The notes beneath the pieces were generated by a model that saw nothing but the letters and a program-made list of their open reading frames with translations, did no database searches and had not been told where the DNA came from. DNA of 64,000 bases from Pseudooceanicola sp. (GTDB taxonomy: Bacteria; Pseudomonadota; Alphaproteobacteria; Rhodobacterales; Rhodobacteraceae). Below are positions 13,203 to 53,912 of the stretch, one piece after another. The stretch lies in the NCBI GenBank assembly GCA_002709085.1, contig PAPR01000053.1, positions 1 through 64,000 on the forward strand. Reading direction: 5' to 3'. Position 1 is the stretch's first letter. Every line of letters begins with the position of its first letter. Both the position numbers and the translations under genes were made by a program.

Positions 13203-14630
13203 ATGTCGTCGGATGACCCTCTGAACCCCTCCGGCTGGCGGAACGTGATCGCCGCCGCCTGCCTGGTGATTTGCCTCGGGGGCGCGATTGTGCAGGGCGC
13301 CATAGGGGCCGATGCCGGTGCTGTCGTGGCGGTGCTGTTCTTTGGCATCTATCTAGCACTCTCATTTCGCTTCATTGCCCGCGTGGGGTGGGTCCTGCTT
13401 GGCTTTTCCTTCGTGGTGGCGCTTCTGGCGCTGGTGAACGGCGTCGGGGGCGACATTTACGTCGAAGCCGCGGGGCGCGTCGTCTTTCTGTCCGCCCTGC
13501 TGACGGCGGTCGCCTTCCTGCGCATTGCGGCCACCAGCGACCGGGTTGTCGAAGTGGCCGGAGAATTCCTCACGCAGCAGCCTCCTACGCGCCGCTATGC
13601 CTCACTGGGCGTCGGCGGGCATTTGTTCGGCGTGCTGCTGAACCTGGGCGGGCTCGGTGTGATGCTGGAGGTCATCATGAAAGGCCTGAGGGCGCATCGT
13701 CACGAGATGGACGACTTTGTCTATGCCGCACGCAAGCGGCGCATGGTCAGCGCCTGCATGCGCGGGTTCTCCACGGTCGCCTTCTGGACGCCGTTCGGCG
13801 TCGCGCTGAACCTGTTGATCCTCACGATACCGGGGCTGGAATGGTGGCACCTGGCCCCCTACGGGTTGTCGCTGGCCGGGTTCCTCTTTCTGCTCGGCTG
13901 GCTGTTTGACACGGTAAAGTGGCGCCGCCCGCCGTCGGCGCGTGGCCGGGCGGCTGATCTGACCGGCGATCTGCCGGGGTGGAGCCGTTGGGCCGTTCTG
14001 ATCGTCGCGGGCCATATCTTTCTTCTCGGCGCATCGGTGATGACGCTGGACAAGGCGACCCCGTTTAGTTTCCAGACTGTACTGATCTTCATCGTTCCCA
14101 TTTATGCGACGCTCTGGGCCGTGCTGCGCGGCGGGATCGGTGGCGTGGCTTCGATGTCGCGTCGGTTTATCGCTCAATCGCCCGGCTACGCGACCGAGAT
14201 GAGCGTCATCGCCTCCGCAGGCTTTGTCGGTCTTGTCGCTCTGGAGGTTGTCCCGGTCGAATGGATCGCTGACCACCTCGGCTGGATCGCCGCGCGGCCG
14301 GTCCTGACCGTTCTCATGCTGGTGGTCACCGTCTTCCTGACGGGATTGGCGGGGGTCCACCCGATGATCTCTGTGGTGCTGCTGGCAGACGTGGTCAGCC
14401 GTGTCGGGGTGGAGGGCCTGTCGCCCCTGGCGCTGGGTCTCGCTTTGGCAGGCGGGTGGAGCGGTATCATCTGCATAGGCCCCGCGATCACCGCGGTCGT
14501 CTATGCCTCGGCCATCGTGAAGGAATCGCCAGTGACGATAGGATTTCACTGGAATGGTGCCTACGGCCTTGCGAGCATTTTTGTTGTCGCCCTGGTTGTC
14601 GGCGGCGGCGTGGCCCTTGGACTGCTCTAA
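13203..14630 (+). CDS. polytopic membrane protein, putative transporter/permease of unassigned family
   Basis: About a dozen hydrophobic segments; LAGVHPMISVVLLADVVSRVG and GGWSGIICIGPAITAVVYASAIV. Confidence 0.75.
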   Translation: MSSDDPLNPSGWRNVIAAACLVICLGGAIVQGAIGADAGAVVAVLFFGIYLALSFRFIARVGWVLLGFSFVVALLALVNGVGGDIYVEAAGRVVFLSALLTAVAFLRIAATSDRVVEVAGEFLTQQPPTRRYASLGVGGHLFGVLLNLGGLGVMLEVIMKGLRAHRHEMDDFVYAARKRRMVSACMRGFSTVAFWTPFGVALNLLILTIPGLEWWHLAPYGLSLAGFLFLLGWLFDTVKWRRPPSARGRAADLTGDLPGWSRWAVLIVAGHIFLLGASVMTLDKATPFSFQTVLIFIVPIYATLWAVLRGGIGGVASMSRRFIAQSPGYATEMSVIASAGFVGLVALEVVPVEWIADHLGWIAARPVLTVLMLVVTVFLTGLAGVHPMISVVLLADVVSRVGVEGLSPLALGLALAGGWSGIICIGPAITAVVYASAIVKESPVTIGFHWNGAYGLASIFVVALVVGGGVALGLL

Positions 14631-14774: not shown

Positions 14775-15737
14775 GTGTCGGACCGACAAATGATGACGAT
14801 AGACCATAAAATGAATCCCACACGCCAAAGCAAGGTCATGGGCCTGGACGACGCGGCCATCCTTGCCAGGGATGCCCTGCGCGAGCGGCCTGACCTGTGC
14901 CTGGGCGGGCTGTTCAAACAGGGACGCCCGGTCGCATTGGTCCGCGCGTTGCTGGCCGCGGGCGCGCAAGGGCTGCACCTCTATTCTTCGCCTGGCGCTG
15001 GGTATGATGTCGACCTGATGATCGCGGCCGGTGCCGTCGAAGAGATGTTCCTCCCCGGTGTGACGCTGGAAAACCGACTCTGCCCCAATTTCCGCAGCGC
15101 GGTCGAAGGAGGGCAGGTGACTGCCCATGCCTTGGACGCCCTGACGGTGGTGGGCGGGCTGATGGCATCGGCCAACGGCGTGCCGTTCCAGCCGATCGAC
15201 GCGCTGCGCGGCTCGGACGTCCTGAAGCACAATCCCCTTATCCGCGAGATCGACTGTCCCTTCACCGGGCGACGCATTCATGCTGTCGGACCTATCCGGC
15301 CGCGCGTCACATTCCTGCATGCGCAAGAGGCTGATCGCTGGGGCAACCTGCGTCACCTCAGCACCATGGTCTATGCCGATCAACTGATGGCGCGCGCCTC
15401 GGACATGGTCATTGCAAGCGTGGACCGGATCGTGCCGGACGAGGTGATCCTGGACGATCCAACGCGTGTCACGGTCCCGTCCCACTATGTCAAAGCGGTC
15501 GTGGAGGTGCCATTTGGCGCGCATCCGACGGCGAGCTATCCGAACTATGCGATGGATGAGGAGCATATCGATGCCTACGCCGATTTGGGCGATGCGGCAC
15601 GCGTCGGCGACCGCGCTGGATTGGAGGCCTATATCGCACGCCATGTGACCGAGCCGAAAAGCCAGGACGATTACATCAAGGCGGTTGGGGGTCCCGAATA
15701 CCTCGCCCGTCTGGAAGCGGAGGCTCGGGACAGATGA
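14775..15737 (+). CDS. CoA-transferase-fold subunit A (GctA/IpdA-like)
   Basis: LCLGGLFKQGRPVALVRALLAAGAQGLHLYSSPGAGYDVDLMIAAGAVEEMF...; start may be one of the internal Mets. Confidence 0.85.
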   Translation: MSDRQMMTIDHKMNPTRQSKVMGLDDAAILARDALRERPDLCLGGLFKQGRPVALVRALLAAGAQGLHLYSSPGAGYDVDLMIAAGAVEEMFLPGVTLENRLCPNFRSAVEGGQVTAHALDALTVVGGLMASANGVPFQPIDALRGSDVLKHNPLIREIDCPFTGRRIHAVGPIRPRVTFLHAQEADRWGNLRHLSTMVYADQLMARASDMVIASVDRIVPDEVILDDPTRVTVPSHYVKAVVEVPFGAHPTASYPNYAMDEEHIDAYADLGDAARVGDRAGLEAYIARHVTEPKSQDDYIKAVGGPEYLARLEAEARDR

Positions 15738-16501
15738 GCGTGGCGGTTTCACCCCTTGAACAGATGGTCGTCGTCTTGGCACGCGACCTCGCCGACGCCG
15801 AATTGGGCGCGGCCGGAGCAGCGGCCCTGGTCCCGATGGCGGCGATCGCATTGGCGCGCGAAATGCACGCGCCCAATCTGACCGTCGGCGGGGAGATGTT
15901 CTTTAACCCGCAGCCGGGTCGCCTTTACCCGTCGATGCTGGATGACCGCGCCCTTGGTCACTGCGAAGCAGCCGAGACCTTTATCGAGCTGTTCGGCCAC
16001 AGCCATCATGGCCTCGACTTCTTTTTTCACAGCGGGTTGCAGCATGACGCCTATGGCAACATCAACCTGCATCATGTCGGCGGAACGCTGCACGCCCCCA
16101 AGATGCGGGGGCCGGGGGCTGCCAACCTCTCCTATTCGCACACCTCGACACGGTTCTACATCTGCCCCACGGTTCATAACGCGCGCAATTTCGTGGAAAA
16201 GGTCGACTTCCTCACGATCCCCGGACACCTTTCGGGTCCGGAATCGAAACGCGAGGCCGGTTTGACCAATGAGGGGCCGCGTTTCGTGGTGACACCGCGT
16301 GCGGTTATGGATTTTGACGAGAAGACCCTGCGGATGCGGCTGAAGTCGGTACACGCCGGGAATACGCCCGAAGAGGTTCAGCGCCAGACCGGATTCGACC
16401 TGGCGATCACGGGTGAGGTGCCACAGACGCCCCCACCTACTGACGAAGAGCTAGCTGTCCTAAGACAGCGGATTGACACAACGGGCGCTCTGCGCGTCTG
16501 A
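15734..16501 (+). CDS. CoA-transferase-fold subunit B (GctB/IpdB-like)
   Basis: HDAYGNINLHHVGGTL..., NARNFVEKVDFLTIPGH, HAGNTPEEVQRQTGFDLA...PPTDEELAVLRQRID; 4-bp overlap with subunit A. Confidence 0.85.
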   Translation: MSVAVSPLEQMVVVLARDLADAELGAAGAAALVPMAAIALAREMHAPNLTVGGEMFFNPQPGRLYPSMLDDRALGHCEAAETFIELFGHSHHGLDFFFHSGLQHDAYGNINLHHVGGTLHAPKMRGPGAANLSYSHTSTRFYICPTVHNARNFVEKVDFLTIPGHLSGPESKREAGLTNEGPRFVVTPRAVMDFDEKTLRMRLKSVHAGNTPEEVQRQTGFDLAITGEVPQTPPPTDEELAVLRQRIDTTGALRV

Positions 16502-16548: not shown

Positions 16549-17520
16549 ATGTTCAGATTCAAGTTGACCGAACACCGGGCGGCTATTGGCACAGTCGCGG
16601 CTCTGACTGCGATGCTGGCCGGGGGGGCGGTTGCCGCCAAGGACCTTACCATGGGCACGACGAGCCCGACGTCCAGCCACTTCACGATTTCGGTCGCGAT
16701 GAGCAAGGCGCTTGAGAGCGGCATGGAGGATGTCACCGTCAACGTGATCGAGACCGGCGCCAGCGTGGACAATGTCCTGCGCCTCGCACGGGATGAAATC
16801 GACATGGGGCTGGCGACGACCGATATCCTGATCTCTGCCCGGAACGGGACCGGCAAGTTCGAAGGCAATGCCATTTCGGACACGGTTGCGCTTTATCCCT
16901 ACAGCTCTTCGGTTCTGCTGATCGCCGTAACGGAAGATTCCGGCGTGACATCGCTCGCCGAACTGGATGGCGAGAAGTTCAATCCCGGCATCCGGGGGTC
17001 CGCTGCCGAAACCCTGACGACCAACGTGCTGTCGATGTTCGATATCAACGCCGACCTCGTGCACGGTGCCGTCGGTGACGCGGTCGAAGGCATCAAGAAC
17101 CGCCAGATCGTCGGCTACAGCAAATACGGCGCTGCAAGCTCGGTCGATTCGACGCTGCAGGAACTGATGACCAGCACAAAGATGCGGTTACTCGGTTTCA
17201 CCGAAGAGCAGGAAAAGGCCGCCGCAGAATCCATGGAAGGCGTGGGCTTCACCACCATGCCCGCCGGTCTGATCCCGGATTCCGAGGAAATTCGGGTACC
17301 GAAACTCAATGTCTTTTTCCTGACCCGCACGGGCGTCATGGATGATCAGACCGCTTATGATGTAGCCCGCAGCATCGACGAGAACATGGACCTTCTGATC
17401 GAAGCATGGCCGCAGCTGAAGGATTACGACATTGCCGCCGATGCCGTCGCGACGATGGAGGCCGGTGTTGCCTATCACCCTGGCGCTGAACGCTACTGGA
17501 AAGAAGCCGTAAGCAACTGA
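16549..17520 (+). CDS. TAXI family TRAP transporter solute-binding subunit
   Basis: Signal peptide, TMGTTSPTSSHFTISVAMSKALE..., followed by fused permease. Confidence 0.87.
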   Translation: MFRFKLTEHRAAIGTVAALTAMLAGGAVAAKDLTMGTTSPTSSHFTISVAMSKALESGMEDVTVNVIETGASVDNVLRLARDEIDMGLATTDILISARNGTGKFEGNAISDTVALYPYSSSVLLIAVTEDSGVTSLAELDGEKFNPGIRGSAAETLTTNVLSMFDINADLVHGAVGDAVEGIKNRQIVGYSKYGAASSVDSTLQELMTSTKMRLLGFTEEQEKAAAESMEGVGFTTMPAGLIPDSEEIRVPKLNVFFLTRTGVMDDQTAYDVARSIDENMDLLIEAWPQLKDYDIAADAVATMEAGVAYHPGAERYWKEAVSN

Positions 17521-17600
17521 ACGACACCGCGGTCAGTCAGCAGGATGCTGTGACCGCACGGGCGGGGCGCTAGGCGCGCCCCGTCGCCACGGGAGGAATC

Positions 17601-19544
17601 ATGACACCGACATCGATCGTAGCGTCGCAATGGGAACGGCGCGGAGAGCAGGCGCTATACGCTCTGTTCGCAGCGTTTGTCGCCCTGCATTTTTATAACG
17701 CCCTCTTCGGACAGTTCGAGCCCTTGGTTCAACGCCCGATTTTCGTGGGATTCGGGCTGGGCGGGGCTTTTTTCCTCTATGCCGCGCGGACGTCCCGAAC
17801 CGGTCGCCGCAACGGGATTGAACGCACGATCGACATCACGCTCGGGCTGTTGGCCTTTGGCGTCTGTCTCTATGTGATCGTCAACCGAGATCGCTATTCC
17901 GACATCATGGTGCAATACGGTTGGCTCGACAAAACAGTCGGGCTGATGGCCGTTCTGTTGACGATGGAGGCCGCGCGACGGGTCATCGGCTGGTTCCTGC
18001 CCTTGCTGGCGCTGATCACGGTTCTCTATTTCTACTTCGGTTACGATTATATCGACGGGGGCTGGCGCCCGCCGCGGGTATCGGCCCGGACGGCGGTTGA
18101 GACATTCTACAGCTCGACCACCGGGATCTTTGGCTATCTCGCGGATGTGGGCGCGCGAGTCATCACGATCTATGTGCTTTTGGGGGCCTTGCTGCTGTCC
18201 ACTGGCGCGACGGACGTGTTCATGAAAATGGCAACATGGATCGCTGGGCGCACCTTCGGCGGTCCGGCAAAGGTCTGCGCTCTGTCCTCGGCGATGTTCG
18301 GGACGGTGACCGGGTCGGCGGTGGCCAACGTCATGGCCACAGGGTCCATAACCATTCCTACCATGAAGCGTCTGCGCTACCCGCCTGCCTTTGCCGGCGC
18401 GGTCGAGGCGGTCGCCTCATCCGCCGGTCAGTTGACTCCGCCGGTGATGGGGGCCGGGGCATTCATCATGGCGGAGTTCCTGAACATTCCCTATACCCAG
18501 ATCGCCGTGGCCGCGATTGGTCCGGCGTTTCTCTATTACCTTGCGATATGGCTGGGTGTGGACCTCTATGCACGTCGCACGGGTCTTCAGCCGACCCCCA
18601 GAAGCGAAATGCCTCAGCCGTCGGACTTCCTGGCGCCCGACAAGGCGATTCCGCTATTTCTTCCCATCGCGACAGTGATCTACTTCCTGTTTCAGGGGTA
18701 TACGCCCAGTTTCGCCGGGGCCGCGTCGATCATCGTTCTGATCCTCTCCTGTGCGGTCGTGCGCCCCTTTGCCCAGGCGGGTCGGGGACAAGGCCTGCGG
18801 GCTTGCTGGATCGGGCTGGCACGGGACGTCTATGAGGGCATGGTCGAAGCAGGCCGCGCATTGGTGATGATCGCCGCGCTGTTGGCCTGCGCCGCGATCG
18901 TGGTCAAGGTGCTGACGGCGACGGGGGCTGGGGTGAAAATCTCGAACCTGCTGTTCTCCGTCTCCGATCAGGGTCTGATCGTCGCCTTGCTGCTGGCTGC
19001 CGTTCTGTCGATCGTTCTGGGCATGGATGTTCCGACCACAGCATCTTACGTGCTGGCAGCGGCGGTCGCGGCGCCCAGTCTTGTGCGGCTTGGCCTGCCG
19101 GAACTGACAGCGCATCTGTTCGTCTTCTACTACGCGATACTGTCGGCGATCACACCACCGGTCTGTGCGAGTGTCTATGCGGCGGCCGCCCTTGCCGGAG
19201 CGAACTTCTGGAAGGTAGCGGGCCGTGCACTGGTGCTGGCCGGCGCGGTCTATGTCGTGCCTTTCCTGTTCGTCTTCCGGCCGGGTATCCTGGCACAGGG
19301 GGGAACAGGCCAGGTCATCCTCGATCTGGGCGTCGCGAGTGCTGCGGTCTTTGCCGTCAGCGTCGGGTTAAGCGGATACCTTCGAGGGACACTGCCCCTT
19401 GGCACGCGGGCGTTGTTCCTGGCGACCGCGGCCCTGCTGTTCTATGCCGCGCCGGCGGCGGATATCGTGGGCGGACTGGCGCTGGTCGGCCTGGTGGTAT
19501 GGCGGTACCTGCGAGGAGAGCGGAAAGTCCTCAGCGACGGATAA
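17601..19544 (+). CDS. TRAP transporter fused permease (TAXI-associated)
   Basis: FGGPAKVCALSSAMFGTVTGSAVANVMATGSITIPTMKRLRYPPAFAGAVEAVASSAGQLTPPVMGAGAFIMAEF. Confidence 0.93.
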   Translation: MTPTSIVASQWERRGEQALYALFAAFVALHFYNALFGQFEPLVQRPIFVGFGLGGAFFLYAARTSRTGRRNGIERTIDITLGLLAFGVCLYVIVNRDRYSDIMVQYGWLDKTVGLMAVLLTMEAARRVIGWFLPLLALITVLYFYFGYDYIDGGWRPPRVSARTAVETFYSSTTGIFGYLADVGARVITIYVLLGALLLSTGATDVFMKMATWIAGRTFGGPAKVCALSSAMFGTVTGSAVANVMATGSITIPTMKRLRYPPAFAGAVEAVASSAGQLTPPVMGAGAFIMAEFLNIPYTQIAVAAIGPAFLYYLAIWLGVDLYARRTGLQPTPRSEMPQPSDFLAPDKAIPLFLPIATVIYFLFQGYTPSFAGAASIIVLILSCAVVRPFAQAGRGQGLRACWIGLARDVYEGMVEAGRALVMIAALLACAAIVVKVLTATGAGVKISNLLFSVSDQGLIVALLLAAVLSIVLGMDVPTTASYVLAAAVAAPSLVRLGLPELTAHLFVFYYAILSAITPPVCASVYAAAALAGANFWKVAGRALVLAGAVYVVPFLFVFRPGILAQGGTGQVILDLGVASAAVFAVSVGLSGYLRGTLPLGTRALFLATAALLFYAAPAADIVGGLALVGLVVWRYLRGERKVLSDG

Positions 19545-19643: not shown

Positions 19644-20048
19644 TCAGGTCATTCTGAAATAGGGGAAGGTGACCTCATCCGAGGCTTTCACGAATGTCAC
19701 CTCGACCTTGGCACCGATGCGCACGGACTCGGGATCGTCGGTCTGAACCCGGCTCATCATCCGTGGGCCTTCTTCCAGCTCGATCAAGGCAACGACGTAG
19801 GGCACGTCATCGGCAAAGGCCGGGCCCGCCGGGCGTCGCGCGATGGTGAAGGTATGCACCTCACCACGCCCGCTGACCGTGTCGAACTTCAGATTGTCGG
19901 AATGACAGTGCGGGCAGATCGCACGCGGATAGAAGTGATGCTTGCCACAATCGCCGCAAAGCGGAATGTCGAGGCGGCCCTCACGCGCGGCCTCCCAATA
20001 GGGCGCGCTGTCGTGGTCGATCACCGGAAGCGGTTTTTCAGTGCTCAT
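19644..20048 (-). CDS. Zn-ribbon/OB-fold (DUF35-type) protein
   Basis: IPLCGDCGKHHFYPRAICPHCHSDNLKFDTVSGRGEVHTFTIARR; immediately downstream of thiolase-fold gene. Confidence 0.92.
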   Translation of the reverse strand: MSTEKPLPVIDHDSAPYWEAAREGRLDIPLCGDCGKHHFYPRAICPHCHSDNLKFDTVSGRGEVHTFTIARRPAGPAFADDVPYVVALIELEEGPRMMSRVQTDDPESVRIGAKVEVTFVKASDEVTFPYFRMT

Positions 20049-20052
20049 CGGC

Positions 20053-21225
20053 TCAGTCCTTCTGCAAAATCACGGTCGCGCCAGAGGACAGCGTGCCCCC
20101 CGTGCCATGCACCAGCGCGGTTTCGGCACCCGCGACCTGCCGGTCGCCACAGTCCCCACGAAGCTGTCGACTGGCCTCGATCAGCAGGAACATCCCGTAC
20201 ATGCCAGGATGCAGCGCGGACAGGCCACCGCCATTGGTATTCATCGGGAAGGCGCCGCCGGGCGCCGTTCGTTGGCCCGAGACAAAGTCGCCTCCCTCGC
20301 CGATCTTGCAAAAGCCCAGCGCTTCGAGCGTCAGCAGGACGGTGATGGTGAAACTGTCGTAGACCTCGACCACGTCAATGTCGGAATGGGTCACTCCGGC
20401 CATTTTCATAGCGTTTTCGCCGGCCTTCTGCGCAGGAAGCAGACGGGCGAGGTCCGGCATTTCTCCGACGGCCCAATGGGTATGCGCTTCGCCGTAGCCC
20501 TTGACCGCGATAGGTTTGGTCTTGAGGTCCTTGGCGCGCTCGGCGGTGGTCATCACGATGGCACCTGCGCCGTCCGTGACAAGGCAGCAATCGAGCAGGT
20601 GCAGAGGTTCGGAAATCATCATGCTGGACATGACATCATCGACGGTGAGCGGATCGCGCCGCGTTGCGGCAGGATTCAGTTGCGCCCATTTCCGCGTCGC
20701 GACGGCGATTTCGGCCAAGTTCTCCGAGGTGCTGCCGTATTCGTGCATGTGACGCTGTGCGGCCATCGCGTAGCCGCCTACCGGCGTCGGCATCCCGTAG
20801 GGTGTCTCGTGCTGCATCGACAGGACCGAAGGGCGACCGCCCAGGTTCCGACTGCGCAGCGATTTCTGGTCCGAGCTGTAGACAATCAGTGCGACCTCGC
20901 AATACCCCTCGCGCAGCGCCATGGCCGCATGGGCGACATGCGCCTCAAAGGCCGAGCCGCCGATATTGGTGCCATCGACAAACGTCGGCATGATGTTAAG
21001 ATATTCGCCCAACGTCACCGTGGGCAGCTGGCCGGGACCCGGCACGCCCCACATGCCTGCGGTCAAAAGACCATCCACATCGCTCAGCTTGAGGCCCGCC
21101 TCTTCGACGGCGGCCTTTGCCACTAGGGCGGCGTGGCCCAGTACCGAAGCCTTCGTGACGAATTTACCGTCCTCGATGGGCGCATCGGCAAGGCCGACAA
21201 TCACCGGATCGCGTCCGTTCTTCAT
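20053..21225 (-). CDS. thiolase-fold protein / lipid-transfer-type (putative aldolase), apparent loss of nucleophilic Cys
   Basis: Thiolase fold landmarks with TNIGGSAFEAHVAHA where thiolases have the Cys loop; VVEVYDSFTITVLL; HGTGGTLSSGATVIL C-terminus. Confidence 0.88.
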   Translation of the reverse strand: MKNGRDPVIVGLADAPIEDGKFVTKASVLGHAALVAKAAVEEAGLKLSDVDGLLTAGMWGVPGPGQLPTVTLGEYLNIMPTFVDGTNIGGSAFEAHVAHAAMALREGYCEVALIVYSSDQKSLRSRNLGGRPSVLSMQHETPYGMPTPVGGYAMAAQRHMHEYGSTSENLAEIAVATRKWAQLNPAATRRDPLTVDDVMSSMMISEPLHLLDCCLVTDGAGAIVMTTAERAKDLKTKPIAVKGYGEAHTHWAVGEMPDLARLLPAQKAGENAMKMAGVTHSDIDVVEVYDSFTITVLLTLEALGFCKIGEGGDFVSGQRTAPGGAFPMNTNGGGLSALHPGMYGMFLLIEASRQLRGDCGDRQVAGAETALVHGTGGTLSSGATVILQKD

Positions 21226-21271
21226 ATGCTCATTCTCCTTGGCATCCAGTCATACCCTTGCAAACCCGAGG

Positions 21272-22420
21272 TTAATTCGGGCGCATGGTCTTGGCGATTA
21301 GGGTGCGTTGTATCTGCGATGTCCCGCCACCAATAGTGCTTTGCATCCCCTCGCGGAAATAACGTTCCATGTCGGCCTCTGGCAACATCGAATGTCCGCC
21401 GAGGATCTGCATGCCGTTGCGCGTGACGGTTTGCAGCGTCTCGGAGGCGAATAGCTTTGCCATCGCCACTTCCCGCGTGCAGGGCGTCTTGGCCGCCGCC
21501 AGATTGGCCGCGCGATAGACCAGCAGACGCGCCGCGTCGACCTGGGTCTGCATATCGGCGAGCATATGGCGGATCACCTGAAAGTCGAAGATCGGCTTGT
21601 CGAACTGGATCCGTTCGTGCGCGTAACGCAGCGCATCATCCACGGCGGTCTGGGCATTGCCGACATATGCGGCGGCGACCGCGACACGCTCCAGCTCCAG
21701 GTGGTCGGTGATGATCTTCCAGCCGCCGTTTTCAGGCCCCAGAAGGGCATCGGCGGGCAGTTTCACGTCATCGACAAAGATCTCGGTGGTGCCCGTTGCG
21801 CGCCGTGCCAGAGTCGGCAGCTTGCGGATGTCGAGACCCTCGGTGTCGTTGGGGATCAGGAATACCGACAGGCCCTTGTGCTTGGGGGCATCGGGGTCGG
21901 TGCGGGTCAGCATGGCCAGAATCGCATTGTCCGCCGCAGCGCCGGAACACCAGAGCTTTTGCCCCTTGACCACCCAGCCGTTGCCGTCGCGCCGTGCGCG
22001 GGTCGTGGTGGAGGCCGCGTCGGACCCTGCACCCGGCTCGGAAATCGAGATCGAGAACCGGATATCGCCATCGAGGAACGGCTTGATATAGCGCTCTTTC
22101 TGCTCCGGCGTGCCGAACTTCTCGACGTTCATCGCGGTGAATGTAGCCACCATCAGCCCGGTGGAGAAGTCAAAGCCGTATTTCGCCAGCCCCTCGCACA
22201 TCAGCGCGTAATCCACGATGTCACCGCCGAGGCCGCCGCTTTCCTCGGAAAAGAGGATGCCGAGCCAGCCTTCCTTGGCGACCTTTTCATAGGCCTCGTA
22301 GGGATATTCGCGGTTCTGGTCGCATTTCCGGATGTAGTCGCGACCGATCTCTTCGTCGATGAAACGGTTGACGGTCGTGCGCCACATCTCTTGTTCGGGT
22401 GTGAGAAAGTTCATGCTCAT
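21272..22420 (-). CDS. acyl-CoA dehydrogenase
   Basis: MSMNFLTPEQEMWRTTVNRFIDEEI...; ISEPGAGSDAASTTTRA; GGGTSQIQRTLIAKTM; start reset to internal Met. Confidence 0.93.
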   Translation of the reverse strand: MSMNFLTPEQEMWRTTVNRFIDEEIGRDYIRKCDQNREYPYEAYEKVAKEGWLGILFSEESGGLGGDIVDYALMCEGLAKYGFDFSTGLMVATFTAMNVEKFGTPEQKERYIKPFLDGDIRFSISISEPGAGSDAASTTTRARRDGNGWVVKGQKLWCSGAAADNAILAMLTRTDPDAPKHKGLSVFLIPNDTEGLDIRKLPTLARRATGTTEIFVDDVKLPADALLGPENGGWKIITDHLELERVAVAAAYVGNAQTAVDDALRYAHERIQFDKPIFDFQVIRHMLADMQTQVDAARLLVYRAANLAAAKTPCTREVAMAKLFASETLQTVTRNGMQILGGHSMLPEADMERYFREGMQSTIGGGTSQIQRTLIAKTMRPN

Positions 22421-22422
22421 GA

Positions 22423-22917
22423 TTATGCTCCTTCGCTCTCTGCGTGCGCCGCGCGGACCTTGGGCGGCTCGCCCGGTCGGTCGAGCCGAGATTTGCGGAT
22501 CAGCAGGCTGAATTCGCACCGCATCGATGTCTCGTCACGCTGATTGACGGCTTCCAGTTTGCTCGTCACCACGCCGTGATTATCGTCGTGATCCTTCAGA
22601 TCGACGATCTCTGCGCGCGCCCAGAGTGTGTCGCCAATGAAGGTGGGCCGCAGGAACCGCAGCTTGTCGCAGCCGTAAAAAGCGGCGAGGACCGAGCTAT
22701 CGAAAGGGATCATCGCGTTGACGATCGAAAAGACGAGGCTGCCCTGCACAAGGCGCTGCCCGTACAGGGACTCCTTGGCGTGTTCGACGTTGGAGTGCAG
22801 CTCGAGCCAGTTCCCCGTCAGCATGCAGAAGTTGACCACATCGGTCTCAGTCATCGTGCGCCCGATCGAGACGCCGGTCTGACCCAATGCCAGTTCTCCG
22901 AAAGGTTGACGTATCAT
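22423..22917 (-). CDS. MaoC family hotdog dehydratase
   Basis: SIGRTMTETDVVNFCMLTGNWLELHSNVEHAKESLYGQRLVQGSLVFSI. Confidence 0.88.
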   Translation of the reverse strand: MIRQPFGELALGQTGVSIGRTMTETDVVNFCMLTGNWLELHSNVEHAKESLYGQRLVQGSLVFSIVNAMIPFDSSVLAAFYGCDKLRFLRPTFIGDTLWARAEIVDLKDHDDNHGVVTSKLEAVNQRDETSMRCEFSLLIRKSRLDRPGEPPKVRAAHAESEGA

Positions 22918-23585
22918 GCTAAACTCCCCTGTTCTTCTGCGACGGGCGCCAAAACGATCAAGGCATCGGCGGCCACCAATCCTTTGCCATCCGCGCGAAC
23001 CATCACAGGATTGATTTCGATTTCCGAGATCAGATCGGCGTTTTCGGCGAAGAAAACAGATATGCGTGAAATGAGGTCTGCCAGCGCGCCGCTATCGGCC
23101 GGATCCGCGCCGCGCAATCCACTCAGCAACCTGGCCCCTGGCCCCGACTTGACCATTGCCTCTGTCGTCTGTGGATCTGCCGGAGCCAGCCGGATTTCTG
23201 CGGCGTCGATCAGTTCCACCAGGATCCCGCCGGGACCGGCCAGGACGATCGGACCAAAGGTGTCGTCGCGTTTGCAGCCGACGATCCATTCTGCCACGGA
23301 GTTTTCCTCCATGGTCTCGATCAATGCCGTGCCTCCCGGATAGCGTTGCGCCATCTCGTCCGTCGCGACTTTGGCCGCTTCGGGTGAAAGGCCCAGGCGG
23401 ACGAGGCCATGATCGGATTTGTGCGGATAGTCGTCATGGCACAGCTTGGCCACACAGCGCCCCTTGGCGGGATCGCGATCCGGCACGGGGATCCCGATCT
23501 GCTGGATGAGGTCCTTGGCGTCGGCTTCGTGGACGACCTTGCGCCCGTTTTTCTGCCAGTGCTCCAGTGTCTCTCTTGGGGTCAT
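22914..23585 (-). CDS. ADP-forming acyl-CoA synthetase beta subunit (ATP-grasp)
   Basis: EADAKDLIQQIGIPVPD..., GGILVELIDAAEIRLAP, ISEIEINPVMVRADGKGLVAADALI. Confidence 0.9.
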   Translation of the reverse strand: MTPRETLEHWQKNGRKVVHEADAKDLIQQIGIPVPDRDPAKGRCVAKLCHDDYPHKSDHGLVRLGLSPEAAKVATDEMAQRYPGGTALIETMEENSVAEWIVGCKRDDTFGPIVLAGPGGILVELIDAAEIRLAPADPQTTEAMVKSGPGARLLSGLRGADPADSGALADLISRISVFFAENADLISEIEINPVMVRADGKGLVAADALIVLAPVAEEQGSLA

Positions 23586-24997
23586 GCCACTTCTCCCTGC
23601 ATGGCCATCAGTGCAGCAAGGCCCGAGGCAGCCCGTGCTGGCGAATCGTAGACGGGGACAGCGCGCTCCCGGAACGCTTCGTCCGAAGCATCGCTGCGCG
23701 CCGAACCCGTCCAGATGATCAGGACCGGCTTGTCGGTTTTCTCATAGGCTTCTGCGAGCGCCTCGATGAACAGTTGATCCGGCACAAATGTGACGATTGC
23801 GATTGCGATATCCACACCGGGATCGGCGGCGACAGCCTCAAGGCAGCGGCCCACGTAGGTCGGATTCGCCAGAACTACGCCGGTCAGATCGACCGGATTC
23901 GTCACTGAACCGTAAAACGGAACATATTGCGACAGCGCCGTCTGCGTCGTCTCTGCCAGCACCGGGACCTCAAAGCCCGCGCTCTCGGCAAGGTCGGTCA
24001 TCTCGACGCCAAGCCCGCCGGTAACCGAAATGATGCCGACCCTTTTACCCGCAGGCTTTCGCCCCGCGGCAAGGGCCGTCACCGCATCGACCGCGGCCAC
24101 GGATTCCCGTGCACGTATGACGCCGGTTTCGCGGAAGATCGCGCTGATCACCCGGTCATCCCCGGCCATCGCGCCAGTGTGCGACTGGACCGCGCGCGAC
24201 CCGGCGCGGCTGCGCCCGCCCTTGACGGCGACGACATGCTTCCCGGCGTCGGTCAGACGGCGCGCGGCTTCGACGAAACGGCGGCCTTCGCGCAGTTCTT
24301 CGACATAGCAGAGAACGACGCGGGTCTCAGGGTCATTGCCGAGATAGTCCAGCAGGTCGGCGGCCGTCAGATCGGTTTCGTTGCCGCTGGAGACGATGGC
24401 GTTGATGCCCACGCCACGTTCGCCGAGACGCAGGGCCATAAGGCCCGCGAGCGCCCCGGACTGGGAAATCATGGCAACCGGGCCCGGACGAAGACCGTCG
24501 AACATCGGGCTGAAGGTCAACTGAAGATCAGCCGAAGGCTTCACGACCCCTTCGCAGTTCGGCCCGATCAGATAAAAGGGTGCGTCATGCATGATCCGAC
24601 GCAGGCGCGCCTCGTTCTCGTGTCCGTCGTCACCGGCTTCTGAAAAACCGGAGGTCACGCCAACCACCATTTTCACGTCCAGCGCCTTGCAAGCCTCCAG
24701 AGCGTCAAGGGCAATACCGACGGGGGTTGCAAGAACCACCACGTCGACCGCGCCCTCGATCTCGTCGAGACTGCGCACGGCCTGTAGCCCTTCGATTTCG
24801 CCGCCCGAGGGGTTCACCGGAATGATCTTGCCGCCGTAGCCGTTCTTCTTGAGCAGGGCGAGCACCGCTTGCCCAAGCTTGCCCTTGGTCCGGGAGGCCC
24901 CGACCACCGCGATTGAACGTGGGTTGAATAGGACATCCAAGGCTTCGGCCCGTGACGGTCGCCCATCACCAGGTTGATTCGCGTTTGAATTCGCCAT
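23582..24997 (-). CDS. ADP-forming acyl-CoA synthetase alpha subunit (CoA-binding)
   Basis: LDVLFNPRSIAVVGASRTKGKLG, LIGPNCEGVV, VQSHTGAMAG (phospho-His motif). Confidence 0.93.
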   Translation of the reverse strand: MANSNANQPGDGRPSRAEALDVLFNPRSIAVVGASRTKGKLGQAVLALLKKNGYGGKIIPVNPSGGEIEGLQAVRSLDEIEGAVDVVVLATPVGIALDALEACKALDVKMVVGVTSGFSEAGDDGHENEARLRRIMHDAPFYLIGPNCEGVVKPSADLQLTFSPMFDGLRPGPVAMISQSGALAGLMALRLGERGVGINAIVSSGNETDLTAADLLDYLGNDPETRVVLCYVEELREGRRFVEAARRLTDAGKHVVAVKGGRSRAGSRAVQSHTGAMAGDDRVISAIFRETGVIRARESVAAVDAVTALAAGRKPAGKRVGIISVTGGLGVEMTDLAESAGFEVPVLAETTQTALSQYVPFYGSVTNPVDLTGVVLANPTYVGRCLEAVAADPGVDIAIAIVTFVPDQLFIEALAEAYEKTDKPVLIIWTGSARSDASDEAFRERAVPVYDSPARAASGLAALMAMQGEVA

Positions 24998-25156: not shown

Positions 25157-26371
25157 GTGATCACGAATGACGGGCCGCTAAGCGATATCAGGGTTATTGA
25201 AATGGGGCATGTGATCGCCGCACCGATGTGCGGCGCACTGCTTTCGGATTTCGGCGCCGATGTGATCAAGATCGAACGACCGGGGCAGGGCGACATGCTG
25301 CGGGTTCTCAGCGGGCGCGCCAAGGACGGTGTGGGCGTCTGGTGGAAAACACTGGCGCGCAACAAGCGGCTGGTCGCGCTGGACTGGAAATCCGAGGAAG
25401 GGCGCAAAGTTCTGCGCCGCTTGGTCGAGGACGCGCAGATCCTGATCGAGAATTTTCGCCCCGGCGTGCTAGAGCGGGCAGGTCTGGGCCCGGAGATCCT
25501 GCACGAATGGAACCCTGATCTGGTGATTGTGCGGATCTCGGGCTACGGGCAGACCGGGCCGCGTTCGTCCTGGCCGGGGTTTGGCCGCGCAGGCGAGGCC
25601 ATGAGCGGCCTGGCCCATATCACCGGGTTTGCCGACAACGCGCCGATGCATCCCGGCTTTCCCGCAGCGGATTCCACGACCGGTCTGATGGGCGCTTACG
25701 GTGCGATGATGGCGCTGCACGCGGTACGCAGCGGCAGTTCGCGTGGGCAAGTGGTGGATCTGGCGATATTCGAACCACTTCTGCGGTTGATCGACTATCA
25801 CGTGCCGACCCGAACCGGCGCAGGTATGCCGGTCGACCGTAACGGGCTTCAGGCCCCCAATTCCTACGCTCCGGCAGGGGTCTTCCGCGCCAAGGATGGA
25901 AAATGGATCACCATCACGGCGGGAAGCGCGGCCACCGGGCGGCGGCTTCTCGAAGCGGCAGGCGGCGCGGACTGGGCGGCCGAACCACAGTTCCAGACCT
26001 TGGAAGGGTTCGCCGAGCACATGGACGATATCGTGAAACGGGTCGAGGCGTTCGTCGCGCAGCATGACGCGCAGGAGGCCCTCGACATCTTTCACGCCCA
26101 CGATGCCGTCGCGGCGATGATCTATGACGTCGATGATATCCTCGCCGATCCGCATATCGCGGCTCGGGGCAACATCGTAGGGGTCGAAGGCGATGACACC
26201 AAGGTCGTCGGTCCGGTTCCAAAGCTCGACAAGACGCCCGGACGCCTGCGCTGGCTCGGTCGTGGCGAATTGGGTGCGGACAGCCGCACTGTGTTGACTG
26301 AGCTTGGCTTCAACGATGAGCAGGTCGACGACATGGTCAAGAATGGAACAATCGGCGAGCCGGGCCGCTGA
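25157..26371 (+). CDS. CaiB/BaiF (class III) CoA-transferase
   Basis: IRVIEMGHVIAAPMCGALLSDFGADVIKIERPGQGD; SGYGQTGP. Confidence 0.94.
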   Translation: MITNDGPLSDIRVIEMGHVIAAPMCGALLSDFGADVIKIERPGQGDMLRVLSGRAKDGVGVWWKTLARNKRLVALDWKSEEGRKVLRRLVEDAQILIENFRPGVLERAGLGPEILHEWNPDLVIVRISGYGQTGPRSSWPGFGRAGEAMSGLAHITGFADNAPMHPGFPAADSTTGLMGAYGAMMALHAVRSGSSRGQVVDLAIFEPLLRLIDYHVPTRTGAGMPVDRNGLQAPNSYAPAGVFRAKDGKWITITAGSAATGRRLLEAAGGADWAAEPQFQTLEGFAEHMDDIVKRVEAFVAQHDAQEALDIFHAHDAVAAMIYDVDDILADPHIAARGNIVGVEGDDTKVVGPVPKLDKTPGRLRWLGRGELGADSRTVLTELGFNDEQVDDMVKNGTIGEPGR

Positions 26372-26405: not shown

Positions 26406-27572
26406 ATGACTTATCAGATGACATCCGATCAGCAGGAAATCCGGGATTCGATCCTGCGCATTTGCGAAGAGTTCGACGACGAATTCTGGCATAATCGCGA
26501 CCGCGAAGGCGGTTTCCCGCATGAGCTGCACCAAAAACTGGCCAAAAACGGTTGGCTGGGTATCGCCATTCCCGAGGAATACGGCGGCGCCGGTCTGGGG
26601 ATCGTCGAGGCGGCGATCATGATGCAGGCCATCGCGGAATCAGGCGGTGGCAACAGCGCGGCCTCGGCGGTGCACATGAACATCTTCGGGCTGAATCCGG
26701 TGGTCAAATTCGGCACCCCGGAGCAGAAGAAAAAGTACCTCCCGCCCCTGGTGGCCGGCGAACAGCGCGCCTGTTTCGGCGTGACCGAACCGACCACGGG
26801 CCTCGACACGACCAAGCTGAAGACCCGTGCGGTGCGCCAGGGCGACCGCTATGTCGTACATGGCCAAAAGGTCTGGATCTCGACCGCTCAGGTGGCCGAC
26901 AAGATCCTGCTGTTGGCACGCACGACGCCCATCGAGGACGTCAAGAAGCCGACTGAAGGGCTGAGCCTGTTCTATACCTACCTCGACCGCACGTTCGTCA
27001 CCGTGCGGGAGATCGAAAAGATGGGTCGCAAATGCGTCGACTCAAACGAACTTTTCATCGACGGCTTGCCGATCCCCGCGGAGGATCTGATCGGCGAGGA
27101 AGGGCAAGGGTTTCGTCAAATCCTGCATGGTCTGAACCCGGAAAGAGTGCTCGTCGCCGCCGAGGCGGTGGGCATCGGGCGCAACGCGCTGCGACGTGCT
27201 GCGGATTACGCCAACGAACGGGTCGTCTTTGGACGAAAAATCGGTCAGAATCAGGGCGTTCAGCATCCTCTTGCCGCCTGCTGGGCCGAACTGGAGGCCG
27301 CGAACTTGATGGCAATGAACGCCGGCTCGCTCTACGACGCCGGCAAGCCCTGCGGAAACGAAGCCAACGCCGGCAAATATCTCGCGGGCGAAGCGGCGGT
27401 CAAGGCGACGCAGACCGCGCAGTTGACCTTCGGCGGCTTTGGATATGCCAAGGAATATCACGTCGAGCGGCTCGTGCGGGAAGCAATCCTGTTCCGCATC
27501 GCCCCGGTAACGCCGCAGCTGGTTCTGTCGTTTATCGCGGAGCATGCGCTCGGCCTTCCGAAATCTTACTGA
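26406..27572 (+). CDS. acyl-CoA dehydrogenase
   Basis: MTYQMTSDQQEIRDSILRICEEFDDEFW...; C-terminus LFRIAPVTPQLVLSFIAEHALGLPKSY; start reset to Met 35 of the ORF. Confidence 0.93.
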   Translation: MTYQMTSDQQEIRDSILRICEEFDDEFWHNRDREGGFPHELHQKLAKNGWLGIAIPEEYGGAGLGIVEAAIMMQAIAESGGGNSAASAVHMNIFGLNPVVKFGTPEQKKKYLPPLVAGEQRACFGVTEPTTGLDTTKLKTRAVRQGDRYVVHGQKVWISTAQVADKILLLARTTPIEDVKKPTEGLSLFYTYLDRTFVTVREIEKMGRKCVDSNELFIDGLPIPAEDLIGEEGQGFRQILHGLNPERVLVAAEAVGIGRNALRRAADYANERVVFGRKIGQNQGVQHPLAACWAELEAANLMAMNAGSLYDAGKPCGNEANAGKYLAGEAAVKATQTAQLTFGGFGYAKEYHVERLVREAILFRIAPVTPQLVLSFIAEHALGLPKSY

Positions 27573-27595
27573 GTGAAAGTTTAAGGGGAATACCA

Positions 27596-29710
27596 ATGCG
27601 AATTGACGGAATGGATGCCATTTTCGCGCCGCGATCGGTTGCTGTGATCGGTGCTTCAAGCGATCCCAAACGTATCGGCGGGCGACCAGTTGATTTTCTC
27701 AAGCGTCATGGCTTTGCAGGCTCGATCCTGCCCATCAACCCGAAGTCGGCGGAGGTTCAGGGGCTGACGGCTTATCCTTCGATTTCCGATGTCCCGGAAG
27801 CCCCCGACATGGCGGTGATCGCCCTGCCAGCACCCATGGCCGTCAAGGCCGTGGAGGACTGCGCGGCGCGCGGCGTGCGGGGTGCGGTGATCTTCAGTTC
27901 GGGCTTCTCGGAGGTGAATGACGAAGGCGCGGCGCTACAAGCCCGGATGGTGGATATCGCGCGCGAAGGCGGCATGCGGCTGGTTGGGCCGAACTGCCTG
28001 GGCATCGCCAACGTCCGTCACAACCTCTACGCCACATTTACACCCGGCGTTGAGAAACATCTGCCGCGGTCGGGCGATGTGTCGATCGTCAGTCAAAGCG
28101 GGGCGTTCGGCTCGTACTGCATGAGTCTGGTGCGAATGCGGGGCATGGGCGTCAACATCTGGGCGACGACGGGCAATTCCTGCGATGTCGATTTCGCCGA
28201 TGCGGTGGCCTATTGCGCGCAGGACGAACATACCCGTGTGATCATGGGCTATCTCGAAGGTGCAACAGACCGCGACCGCCTGGTCGAAGCGCTGGAGCTC
28301 GCCCGTGCGAATTCCAAGCCGGTGGTGATGATGAAGGTCGGACGCAGCGCAGTCGGCGCCGAGGCCGCCCAATCGCACACGGCCTCCCTTGCCGGGTCCG
28401 ACGCCGTTTATGACGCCGCGTTTCGTCAATACGGCGTTTATCGCGCCCGTTCGGTCGACGAGATGTTCGATGTCACCTACGCTTGCTCCGGTAGCAGCAC
28501 GTTGATGCAGGGCGATCGGCTGGGCCTCGTTACAGTATCGGGCGGCGTCGGGGTTCTGATGGCCGATGAGGCCGAGGATTGGGGGCTGGAGGTGCCTGCG
28601 CTGCCAGATCATGCGCAGAAAAAGCTAAAGGAAGTGTTGCCCTTCGCCGGGGTTCGCAACCCTGTGGACGTGACCGCGCAGCTCGTGAACCAGATTGATC
28701 TGCTGGAAACCAACATGGATGTGTTGTTTGGCGACGGCGATATCGACGGGGCGATCATCTTTATGTCGACGGTCGGGCTGGTCGCTGACCTGAACGAGGC
28801 GATCCGCACCGGGTTGGAGCGCATTCGCGACAAATATCCAGGGCGCCCGATGCTGTTCTGTTCGCTGACGGAACCGGAAGGGCGGGCAGCCTATGAGCGT
28901 TCGGGCTTTATCGTGTTCGAGGAAGCGACACGGGCCGTGCGCGCAATGGCTGCGCTGCGATACTTCGCAAGCTCCTTCGAGCGCCTGCGCGAATCCGATC
29001 CCATACCGGAGCTGCCTTCGCTGTCGCCCTTGCCAGACGGCATGGTGAACGAGATCGAAGCAAAGGCTCTGCTGGCCGAGGCCGGAATCGGGATCGTTCG
29101 GGAAACCCTGGCCAAGACCCCCGAGGATGCGGCCACCGCTGCCGAGGACATGGGCTATCCGGTCGTTCTGAAGATCGCCTCGCCAGACATCCTGCACAAA
29201 TCCGATATCGGCGGCGTCGCGCTGAACCTGCGGTCCGCGGAGGAGGTGCGCTCCGCCGGCGCGCGGATTCTGCAGCTAGCCTCCGAAAAGATGCCTGACG
29301 CGCGGATCGAAGGCCTCGTCGTGGCCGAGCAGGCTGCGCCCGGATTGGAGGCTATCCTGGGTGTCGCACAGGATCCGGCCTTTGGCCCGGTGGTGATGTT
29401 CGGCCTGGGCGGGGTTCTGGTCGAGGCGCTTGGGGACGTGTCCTTTCGGGTCGCGCCGTTCGGACCTGCCGAGGCGCGCCGCATGATCGACGAGATTCGC
29501 GGCCGGAAGCTGTTGGATGAATTCCGCGGAACGCCAAAGCGCGACATCGACGCCTTGGCGAACGCCTTGGCGCGTCTGTCCGCCTACGCAGCGCATCATG
29601 GTGCGGCACTCGAATCTATCGACGTGAACCCGCTGATCGTCGGGGCCGAGGGCGAATCCGCAGTGGCCGCCGACGCTGTCATCATCCCTGCCGGGCCAAA
29701 TCCCGACTAG
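27596..29710 (+). CDS. fused ADP-forming acyl-CoA synthetase (alpha-beta)
   Basis: MRIDGMDAIFAPRSVAVIGASSDPKRIGGRPVDFLK...SHTASLAG...ATP-grasp domain ending DVNPLIVGAEGESAVAADAVII; start reset from the longer ORF. Confidence 0.93.
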   Translation: MRIDGMDAIFAPRSVAVIGASSDPKRIGGRPVDFLKRHGFAGSILPINPKSAEVQGLTAYPSISDVPEAPDMAVIALPAPMAVKAVEDCAARGVRGAVIFSSGFSEVNDEGAALQARMVDIAREGGMRLVGPNCLGIANVRHNLYATFTPGVEKHLPRSGDVSIVSQSGAFGSYCMSLVRMRGMGVNIWATTGNSCDVDFADAVAYCAQDEHTRVIMGYLEGATDRDRLVEALELARANSKPVVMMKVGRSAVGAEAAQSHTASLAGSDAVYDAAFRQYGVYRARSVDEMFDVTYACSGSSTLMQGDRLGLVTVSGGVGVLMADEAEDWGLEVPALPDHAQKKLKEVLPFAGVRNPVDVTAQLVNQIDLLETNMDVLFGDGDIDGAIIFMSTVGLVADLNEAIRTGLERIRDKYPGRPMLFCSLTEPEGRAAYERSGFIVFEEATRAVRAMAALRYFASSFERLRESDPIPELPSLSPLPDGMVNEIEAKALLAEAGIGIVRETLAKTPEDAATAAEDMGYPVVLKIASPDILHKSDIGGVALNLRSAEEVRSAGARILQLASEKMPDARIEGLVVAEQAAPGLEAILGVAQDPAFGPVVMFGLGGVLVEALGDVSFRVAPFGPAEARRMIDEIRGRKLLDEFRGTPKRDIDALANALARLSAYAAHHGAALESIDVNPLIVGAEGESAVAADAVIIPAGPNPD

Positions 29711-29850
29711 AAGTAAGGAGAACTCCCCCAGAATCCCGGAATCCTCCCGGTGTCTGTGCTTGGCTTCCTCTAGGTCATTGACAGACGTTGCGTGCCTCGT
29801 CATTATTTTTCGAATGGCGTTCATATAATCGCACGGGAGGAGCGGGGACT

Positions 29851-30666
29851 ATGGGGGAGTTGCGTCAGTCAATGAGGTGCGCGGACGACGATAAGATCGT
29901 GAAGTCGGTCGCGCGCACCTGTGAGACTTTGGTTTTCTTCGATGAGATGCGTAGGCCACTGACTGTGGTCGAAATATCAAAACAGCTGGGCTATCCGCAG
30001 TCGAGCACTTCGGCGCTGTTGAAGAGCCTGGTGAAACTGGGATTCCTGGCTCATGATGCCAAGCGCAAGAGCTATTTTCCGACCGAACAGGTGCCCCTGC
30101 TCGGCTCGTGGATGAATCCGGACCTTTTCGGCGAGGGCTCGATCCAAAAGTTGCTCAAGGCCATTTCAGTCCGCACCAAGAACGTGGTGGTTCTCGCCAC
30201 GAAGAATGGCGATGAGGCACAGTATATTCAGGTCATCCGGCCCAAGCGATCACCGATCCAACACATATCGCTTGGCACCCGTCGTCCGCTGTTCAATTCT
30301 GGCGTCGGGCGGGTTTTGATGAGTCGTTTCAGCGACGATGAGATTTGTCGATTGCTCCACAAAATTAACGCCTACCGGGAGCCGGGTACGCCTGCTGCGG
30401 ATATCAAGGCGTTCCTCGCCTCCATGGCAGAGACCCGTGCCAAAGGGTACTACCGCTCGACCGACCAGTTCGTCAAAGGCACGGGGCTGATATCGATGCC
30501 CTTCCCCAACCATTTGGACTCGCGCCTGTTTGCAGTTGGCGTTGGGGCACCCTCAGATGTGATTCTGAGGTGTGAAGCGGAGATCGTCAAAATCATGCGC
30601 GAAGAGATCGTCGCGCAACTGGGCAAAAGCCGCACCGGTCCTGTCAGTGTTGCGTCCTTCGGCTAA
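29851..30666 (+). CDS. IclR family transcriptional regulator
   Basis: VKSVARTCETLVFFDEMRRPLTVVEISKQLGYPQSSTSALLKSLVKLGFL. Confidence 0.92.
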   Translation: MGELRQSMRCADDDKIVKSVARTCETLVFFDEMRRPLTVVEISKQLGYPQSSTSALLKSLVKLGFLAHDAKRKSYFPTEQVPLLGSWMNPDLFGEGSIQKLLKAISVRTKNVVVLATKNGDEAQYIQVIRPKRSPIQHISLGTRRPLFNSGVGRVLMSRFSDDEICRLLHKINAYREPGTPAADIKAFLASMAETRAKGYYRSTDQFVKGTGLISMPFPNHLDSRLFAVGVGAPSDVILRCEAEIVKIMREEIVAQLGKSRTGPVSVASFG

Positions 30667-52131: not shown

Positions 52132-52133
52132 TT

Positions 52134-52916
52134 TCAGGAACCCTTGAAAGTCGCGGCGCGTTTTTCCAGGAAGGCCGAGCACCCTTCGTGCGAGTCCTCA
52201 CTGTCCAGCACCAGCCCGATCATCGCCTGTTCGTGACGCAGGGCCGCCGAGAGGGGCATATCCGCGCCATCGGTCACTGTCCGCTTGAGCAGCTTCAGAA
52301 CCAGCGGCGATTTCGCGGCGATCTTGTCCGCCGTCTCGCGGGCGCTCGCCATCAGCTCATCATGCGGGACCACGCGGTTGGCGAGGCCGATGCTGACCGC
52401 CTCTTCCGGGGTCAACATATCGCCGGTGTACATGATCTCCTTGGCGCGGCAGAGGGGCAGTTGACGGATGATCCGCTGGGTGCCGCCGGCGCCGGGAAAC
52501 AGACCCAGAGTGATTTCGGGAAGGCCCAGCCGGGACTTGTCGGACAGAATGCGGATATCGAGCGCCAGCAACAATTCGGTGCCACCGCCCAGCGCGAACC
52601 CGTTCACCGCGCCAATCGTCGGCTTGTCGAGCGTCTCGATCCGGCGGAACAGGTTATGGATAGCCTCGGCGAATTCCTCGTAGTGCGGCAGGCCCTGGCG
52701 CGAATTCAGATCGGCGATGTCGCCGCCCGCGACAAAGGAACGCCCAGTCCCCGTAAAGATCACCACGCGGATCTCGGGGTCTGTCGCGACCTTGTCGAGG
52801 GCGTCGTTCAGCGCGCGGACGGCCGGTAAGTCAATCGCATTCAGCGTGTCGGGGCGGTTGATCGTCAATGTGGCGATCGGGCCATCGACGTCTATCAGGA
52901 TCGTGTCGGTTGTCAT
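52134..52916 (-). CDS. enoyl-CoA hydratase/isomerase family protein
   Basis: TGTGRSFVAGGDIADLNSRQG, GAVNGFALGGGTELLLALDIRILSD. Confidence 0.94.
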   Translation of the reverse strand: MTTDTILIDVDGPIATLTINRPDTLNAIDLPAVRALNDALDKVATDPEIRVVIFTGTGRSFVAGGDIADLNSRQGLPHYEEFAEAIHNLFRRIETLDKPTIGAVNGFALGGGTELLLALDIRILSDKSRLGLPEITLGLFPGAGGTQRIIRQLPLCRAKEIMYTGDMLTPEEAVSIGLANRVVPHDELMASARETADKIAAKSPLVLKLLKRTVTDGADMPLSAALRHEQAMIGLVLDSEDSHEGCSAFLEKRAATFKGS

Positions 52917-52933
52917 ATGAAACTCCTCAGTGT

Positions 52934-53908: not shown

Positions 53909-53912
53909 CGGT

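Follow-up and report, generated by a model that had tools for sequence, protein, structure and literature searches.

A cysteine-less thiolase-fold protein and its DUF35 partner form a candidate retro-aldolase in Pseudooceanicola

We analyzed a 64,000-nucleotide stretch of the marine bacterium Pseudooceanicola sp. (contig PAPR01000053.1, positions 1 to 64,000; hereafter the window), in which an operon on the minus strand encodes a thiolase-fold protein without the nucleophilic cysteine (20053-21225) and, next to it, a DUF35 protein (19644-20048). As judged from sequence comparisons, the two proteins together are probably a carbon–carbon lyase, i.e., a retro-aldolase, and not a thiolase. Four features lead to this assignment: the nucleophile is absent, the Tyr that acts as the base in Ltp2, Sal, and IpfD is conserved, a DUF35 gene adjoins, and the protein is nearer to Sal and Ltp2 by profile, fold, and tree. 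The original prediction, made from the DNA alone, had proposed a retro-aldolase resembling the Ltp2-ChsH2 complex of steroid side-chain degradation; a retro-aldolase remains the best explanation, but the active site is neither that of Ltp2 (Tyr/Tyr, YDHF) nor that of Sal (Tyr/Cys, YDCY).

Active site of the thiolase-like protein

Residue correspondences were taken from sequence alignment, and conservation was followed in 108 members of the clade, collected from 80 named loci and related genomes of many phyla. When aligned with two authentic thiolases from the same genome (NQVCGSGL and NRLCGSGA), the protein carries Gly90, within the loop GTNIGGSAF, in the column of the nucleophilic Cys. The thiolase NEAF motif is replaced by YDSF, with Tyr289 as its first residue, and the position of the second catalytic Cys, found in the C-terminal CxG or HDCF motif of authentic thiolases, is occupied by His373 within HGTGG. 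The original prediction had read the same Gly and the same HGTGG replacement, and had likened the YDSFTI segment to Tyr-bearing aldolases; all three readings stand.

Gly90, Tyr289, Asp290, Phe292, His339, and Gly376 are invariant in 108/108 homologues. At position 291, the third letter of YDxF, 76 of them have Ser and 32 have Ala, while Cys and His never occur, and His373 varies more than the other motifs (His in 84/108, Asn in 18/108, other residues in 6/108). The dN/dS ratio (nonsynonymous to synonymous substitution rates) of the gene is 0.045 to 0.057 against three orthologues. Since Gly90, Tyr289, and His339 are kept throughout and dN/dS is about 0.05, the loss of the nucleophile is not due to chance. 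In addition, Thr330 and Arg158 are common to the query clade, Sal, Ltp2, and IpfD and do not occur in authentic thiolases. The protein scores 484.5 bits, above the curated cut-off of 421, with the NCBIfam family NF004811 (PRK06158, "acetyl-CoA acetyltransferase"); the thiolase activity implied by this name is contradicted by the active-site residues, and the family is probably misnamed.

In the steroid aldolase TcLtp2, Tyr294 of YDHF serves as the base and Tyr344 as the acid; in the bile-acid aldolase CtSal these roles fall to Tyr302 of YDCY and Cys304, the C304S variant is inactive, and Gln352 is the counterpart of Tyr344 (PMC12329534). Tyr289 aligns with these bases, and mutagenesis of both enzymes showed the equivalent Tyr to be essential (PMC12329534); His339 aligns with TcLtp2 Tyr344 and CtSal Gln352. 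Alignment with Ltp2, Sal, and thiolases, which the original prediction had proposed as a check, thus upheld the absent Cys nucleophile and the shared Tyr base, but the acid residues differ (Ser291 and His339).

Relationship to aldolases and thiolases

A profile built from 44 homologues and compared with Protein Data Bank (PDB) chains ranked 4u4e first (600 bits), followed by CtSal (328) and TcLtp2 (267), and then by the Cys-bearing thiolases 7yvy (235) and BbsB (201). The same order was obtained from the AlphaFold model of the query (pLDDT 88.3, pTM 0.91), whose fold matches 4u4e, Sal, and Ltp2, and only then thiolases. In a careful tree of 40 sequences, the Cys-bearing thiolases stand apart (99/97), Sal, Ltp2, and IpfD form one group (91/88), and the query clade forms another (92/94); a quick tree of 67 sequences agrees with it. 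The query does not group with TcLtp2 in the 40-sequence tree, an observation of moderate weight given the long branches. Profile, fold search, and trees place the query nearer to Sal and Ltp2 than to the Cys-bearing thiolases, in a sister clade of its own that is moderately supported; confidence in the exact sister relation is likewise moderate, given the long branches leading to Sal and IpfD. Searches of about 240 genomes of the class yielded no strong match for Sal and two for Ltp2.

Operon organization and partner enzymes

The operon spans 24997-19644 on the minus strand and comprises six genes, for which Pfam and NCBIfam agree on the names. It begins with the alpha-type subunit of an ADP-forming acyl-CoA ligase (23582-24997; CoA-binding and Succ_CoA_lig, PF13607/PF13380), the Roseovarius indicus copy of which is annotated "CoA-binding protein," and continues with the ATP-grasp subunit (22914-23585; PF13549), whose open reading frame (ORF) overlaps the preceding one by 4 bases. 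A MaoC-type enoyl-CoA hydratase follows (22423-22917; PF01575, MaoC_dehydratas), again with a 4-base overlap, and then, after a gap of 2 bases, an acyl-CoA dehydrogenase (ACAD) (21272-22420, with its true start at about 22420; Pfam Acyl-CoA_dh, PDB search, and ACAD alignment). The gene of the thiolase-like protein (Pfam Thiolase_C_1, 1.3e-62) lies 46 bases further on and that of its DUF35/ChsH2-type partner, a zinc-ribbon and OB-fold protein (PF12172, zf-ChsH2, and PF01796, OB_ChsH2_C), 4 bases after it. The original prediction had given the last four genes with correct coordinates and strand, but had missed the two upstream ones (22914-24997), so that the module is longer than it supposed.

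The nearest PDB chains of the DUF35 protein are 9myr_B and 6ok1_B. Its zinc-ribbon cysteines, read from the sequence, are arranged as C31-x2-C34-x10-C45-x2-C48, which is the C4 pattern C-x2-C-x10-C-x2-C of the Ltp2-type partner (PMC12329534).

The MaoC protein carries N-x4-H-x-N where (R)-hydratases have D-x4-H-x-D, i.e., the His is kept and the Asp is replaced by Asn; every roseobacter orthologue that was read shows this motif, as does the second domain of 4e3e. In the operon ACAD, Gly occupies the position of the catalytic Glu of short-chain acyl-CoA dehydrogenases (SCAD) and a Glu is present in the motif LELERV, a pattern that we take to be the isovaleryl- or long-chain-type arrangement and that weakly suggests branched substrates. 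Several ACADs of the window (at 21272, 26406, 36265, 45279, and 49613) carry Glu-Arg in their helix motif and lack a Glu at the SCAD catalytic position, unlike the protein encoded at 44046-45182.

Genomic context and distribution of the clade

A DUF35 gene or zinc-ribbon ORF adjoins in 68/82 clade loci vs 2/20 control loci of authentic thiolases. A hydratase is found nearby in 32 and an ACAD in 30 of the 82. The clade extends over Pseudomonadota, Bacillota, Chloroflexota, Actinomycetota, and further phyla, and its members are annotated as acetyl-CoA acetyltransferase. The whole gene arrangement is kept in roseobacters (loci L038-L046), often on plasmids of 220-450 kb, and plasmid-borne copies were found in Pseudosulfitobacter, Sulfitobacter, Roseovarius, Marinovum, Sagittula, and Paracoccus. 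In three related genomes the module sits on contigs of nearly equal size (106.9, 107.7, and 107.8 kb; G010:C5, G015:C4, and G021:C3), perhaps representing one replicon or element.

On the R. indicus plasmid pRIdsm_01, the module lies within an island of roughly 100 kb that also contains two additional thiolase-DUF35 pairs along with numerous ACADs, CaiB enzymes, and transporters; no annotated ring oxygenase is present in the part read of this island (100 kb). Both additional thiolase-like proteins (L135:386-1923 and L135:18164-19696) carry YDAF together with the conserved His of HPGMYG.

In the window, a divergent operon on the plus strand starts with a CaiB/BaiF class III CoA-transferase (25157-26371; PF02515), whose synteny is kept in the roseobacter copies, followed by a second ACAD (26406-27572; Pfam and ACAD alignment), a fused ADP-forming acyl-CoA ligase (27032-29710; Pfam), the true start of which lies further in, the R. 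indicus homologue being 2100 bp long, and an IclR-type regulator (29788-30666; Pfam). Convergent with the minus-strand operon, a TAXI-type TRAP transporter made of a solute-binding protein and a fused permease (16549-19544, plus strand; Pfam NMT1_3 and DctM, synteny) is preceded by a two-subunit class I CoA-transferase assigned by PDB searches to the glutaconate (Gct) type, with the active-site Glu of GctB kept (14775-16501, plus strand). The ORF at 13203-14630 encodes a predicted membrane protein of 475 residues without a Pfam or NCBIfam match, and its R. indicus homologue beside the module is annotated "hypothetical protein." Within the catabolic island, at 50803-54878, genes judged by eye resemble those of a 2-oxo acid or acetoin dehydrogenase (E1 alpha, E1 beta, and E2).

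Proposed function and substrate

In the pathway that we propose, the TAXI-TRAP transporter would import an acid, from which the two-subunit ligase would make the CoA thioester; the ACAD would then dehydrogenate this thioester, and the MaoC protein would add water to yield a 3-hydroxyacyl-CoA. Tyr289 would remove the proton of the 3-hydroxyl group, the C2–C3 bond would break, and the acetyl- or propionyl-CoA enolate would be protonated by His339, standing at the place of the TcLtp2 acid Tyr344, to give a ketone or aldehyde and acetyl- or propionyl-CoA. A Tyr base and a His acid (Tyr289 and His339, with Ser or Ala in YDxF) appear from the alignment to be the likeliest arrangement, which has the known acid of neither Ltp2 nor Sal.

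The substrate is probably β-branched or alicyclic, because a tertiary β-alcohol is not oxidizable to the 3-ketoacyl-CoA required by a thiolase; a β-branched or alicyclic acyl-CoA is our best guess, and a tertiary 3-hydroxyacyl-CoA is plausible. In Polaromonas JS666, an orthologue of 73% identity is borne on plasmid 2 beside a MaoC gene and a ligase that scores 689 bits, below the cut-off of 792, with the cyclohexanecarboxylate-CoA ligase profile. The orthologue is part of a gene run with biotin carboxylases and 3-hydroxy-3-methylglutaryl-CoA lyase, and an alcohol dehydrogenase, a Baeyer-Villiger-like flavin monooxygenase, and a hydrolase are located about 9-10 kb away, across the start of the record and with insertion sequences between. 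This neighborhood fits, weakly, a ketone derived from an alicyclic or terpenoid acid. Because just one further clade locus (L195) has a Baeyer-Villiger monooxygenase nearby, we rejected this enzyme as a general indicator that a ketone is formed. Arthrobacter CA1 reportedly converts (1-hydroxycyclohexyl)acetyl-CoA to cyclohexanone and acetyl-CoA; our literature search on cyclohexylacetate degradation returned nothing usable.

It is possible, though rather doubtful, that the family as a whole is a general Tyr/His retro-aldolase for β-branched or alicyclic 3-hydroxyacyl-CoAs, very widespread and mislabelled. If so, it would provide a carboxylation-free bypass of the block that β-branches impose on β-oxidation, and could be the source of the gene for an activity such as (1-hydroxycyclohexyl)acetyl-CoA lyase (EC 4.1.3.35).

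Alternative explanations

Several observations weigh against a retro-aldolase. YDSF cannot act by the mechanism of Sal, because the C304S variant of CtSal is dead, and the case then rests on His339; the conservation of this residue in 108/108 homologues does not by itself mark an aldolase, because it is the ordinary histidine of the thiolase GHP motif. The MaoC partner, with Asn for Asp, lacks the Asp/His catalytic dyad. Genes of short-chain dehydrogenases/reductases (SDR), able to serve as 3-hydroxyacyl-CoA dehydrogenases, adjoin many relatives. No hydroxyacyl-CoA dehydrogenase gene is present inside the operon at 24997-19644, but we rejected this absence as proof of retro-aldol chemistry, since such a gene lies near 8/82 clade loci and, similarly, 2/20 control loci. 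Finally, an invariant Cys, Cys214, remains in 108/108 homologues, the sole one to do so. Authentic thiolases have Ser in this column and TcLtp2 and IpfD have Cys, which makes a role as nucleophile unlikely. An unusual thiolase or acyltransferase, in which another nucleophile such as Cys214 operates or CoA attacks directly with no acyl-enzyme formed, would fit the retained GHP histidine, the SDR or hydroxyacyl-CoA dehydrogenase genes that could make 3-ketoacyl-CoA near some relatives, and the NCBI family name. That name is a provisional label, however; the Cys214 column holds no catalytic Cys in authentic thiolases and is Cys in proteins that are not thiolases, and none of NEAF/HDCF, the nucleophilic Cys, and the second Cys is preserved. 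We thus regard this alternative as unlikely.

Thiolase-fold enzymes work in both directions, and TbSLP, a relative, has a very slow decarboxylase activity toward malonyl-CoA, which would allow for an aldolase acting in synthesis or an enolate-forming decarboxylase. Such a role is quite improbable, as CtSal has no malonyl-CoA decarboxylase activity and the neighbors are catabolic, with acyl-CoA ligases, ACADs, a hydratase, uptake transporters, and an IclR regulator, on catabolic plasmids. The loss of the thiolase catalytic residues and the altered Asp of the MaoC partner could also indicate a paralogue that is devoid of catalytic activity and serves as a scaffold or in regulation. This, too, is hard to reconcile with Tyr289, Asp290, Phe292, His339, and Gly90 being constant across phyla under a dN/dS of about 0.05, and with Tyr289 being the residue that is essential in Sal and Ltp2, and we consider it very unlikely. 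A true orthologue of Ltp2 or Sal, with the side chains of steroids or bile acids as its substrates, would share the fold and the DUF35, ACAD, and MaoC neighbors, and the CoA-transferase at 14775-16501 gives an IpdAB-like match (score of one subunit). We rejected these IpdAB-like genes as evidence for steroid rings, because they retain the Gct glutamate and their beta subunit is nearer to GctB than to IpdB. Moreover, the query falls outside the Sal/Ltp2 group in the tree and its acid residues differ. As the original prediction had noted, sterol ring genes are not recognizable: neither the window nor the 100 kb read from the R. indicus island contains a sterol ring oxygenase, and the 77%-complete genome gives no KshA match. 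Steroid or bile-acid orthology is therefore highly improbable.

Comparison with known systems

The closest structure is 4U4E, a putative thiolase from Sphaerobacter thermophilus DSM 20745 (structural genomics, 2014), which belongs to the same clade with 54% identity and carries the same Gly, YDSF, HPGMYG, and HGTGG motifs; the protein is uncharacterized, and our literature search found no paper on it. BbsAB benzoylsuccinyl-CoA thiolase and the archaeal DUF35 thiolases (7PXP, 7YVY, and 6ESQ) share the thiolase and DUF35 architecture, but they retain the nucleophilic Cys and have lower profile scores than Sal and Ltp2.

The TcLtp2-ChsH2(DUF35) aldolase (6OK1) is alike in fold, base (Tyr294, equivalent to Tyr289), C4-type DUF35, and DCC motif. 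It differs in having His296 in place of Ser291 and the acid Tyr344 in place of His339, with about 32% identity, and its steroid context is absent here. The CtSal-Shy(DUF35) aldolase (9MYR) shares the fold, the Gly at the nucleophile site, the Tyr base, the DUF35 partner, and the MaoC/ACAD pathway logic (PMC12329534), whereas its acid Cys304 corresponds to Ser291 and its Gln347 and Gln352 to Gly334 and His339, with about 35% identity. DUF35 is fused to MaoC in the Sal system and has a C3H1 zinc site, whereas here the genes are separate and the zinc ribbon is of the C4 type.

IpfD and IpfE, encoded on plasmid pIBU218, are likewise a Cys-less thiolase-fold protein and a DUF35 partner, proposed to act as a non-steroid retro-aldolase yielding propionyl-CoA; mutants and metabolites implicate IpfD in the cleavage of ibuprofen-CoA dihydrodiol (PMC9195938). 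IpfD has YDAF, with Ala at the third position as in 32/108 of the query clade, but Tyr at the acid position; its partner is a ring-hydroxylating dioxygenase instead of ACAD and MaoC, no dioxygenase gene being found among the ORFs of the present operon, and IpfE is devoid of a C4 zinc ribbon. If the reported role of IpfD is right, neither Cys nor His would be required at the third YDxF position. Because IpfD combines YDAF with a Tyr at the acid position, this third residue may be inert, the acid position holding Tyr in Ltp2 and IpfD or His in the query clade. Non-steroid use of a Cys-less thiolase fold with DUF35 already has a precedent in IpfDE, and if the Tyr/His pair works as proposed, it would account for the way in which many bacteria break down branched or cyclic acids with no need of the carboxylase route, and would represent a third retro-aldol route in one fold, after those of Ltp2 (Tyr/Tyr) and Sal (Tyr/Cys).

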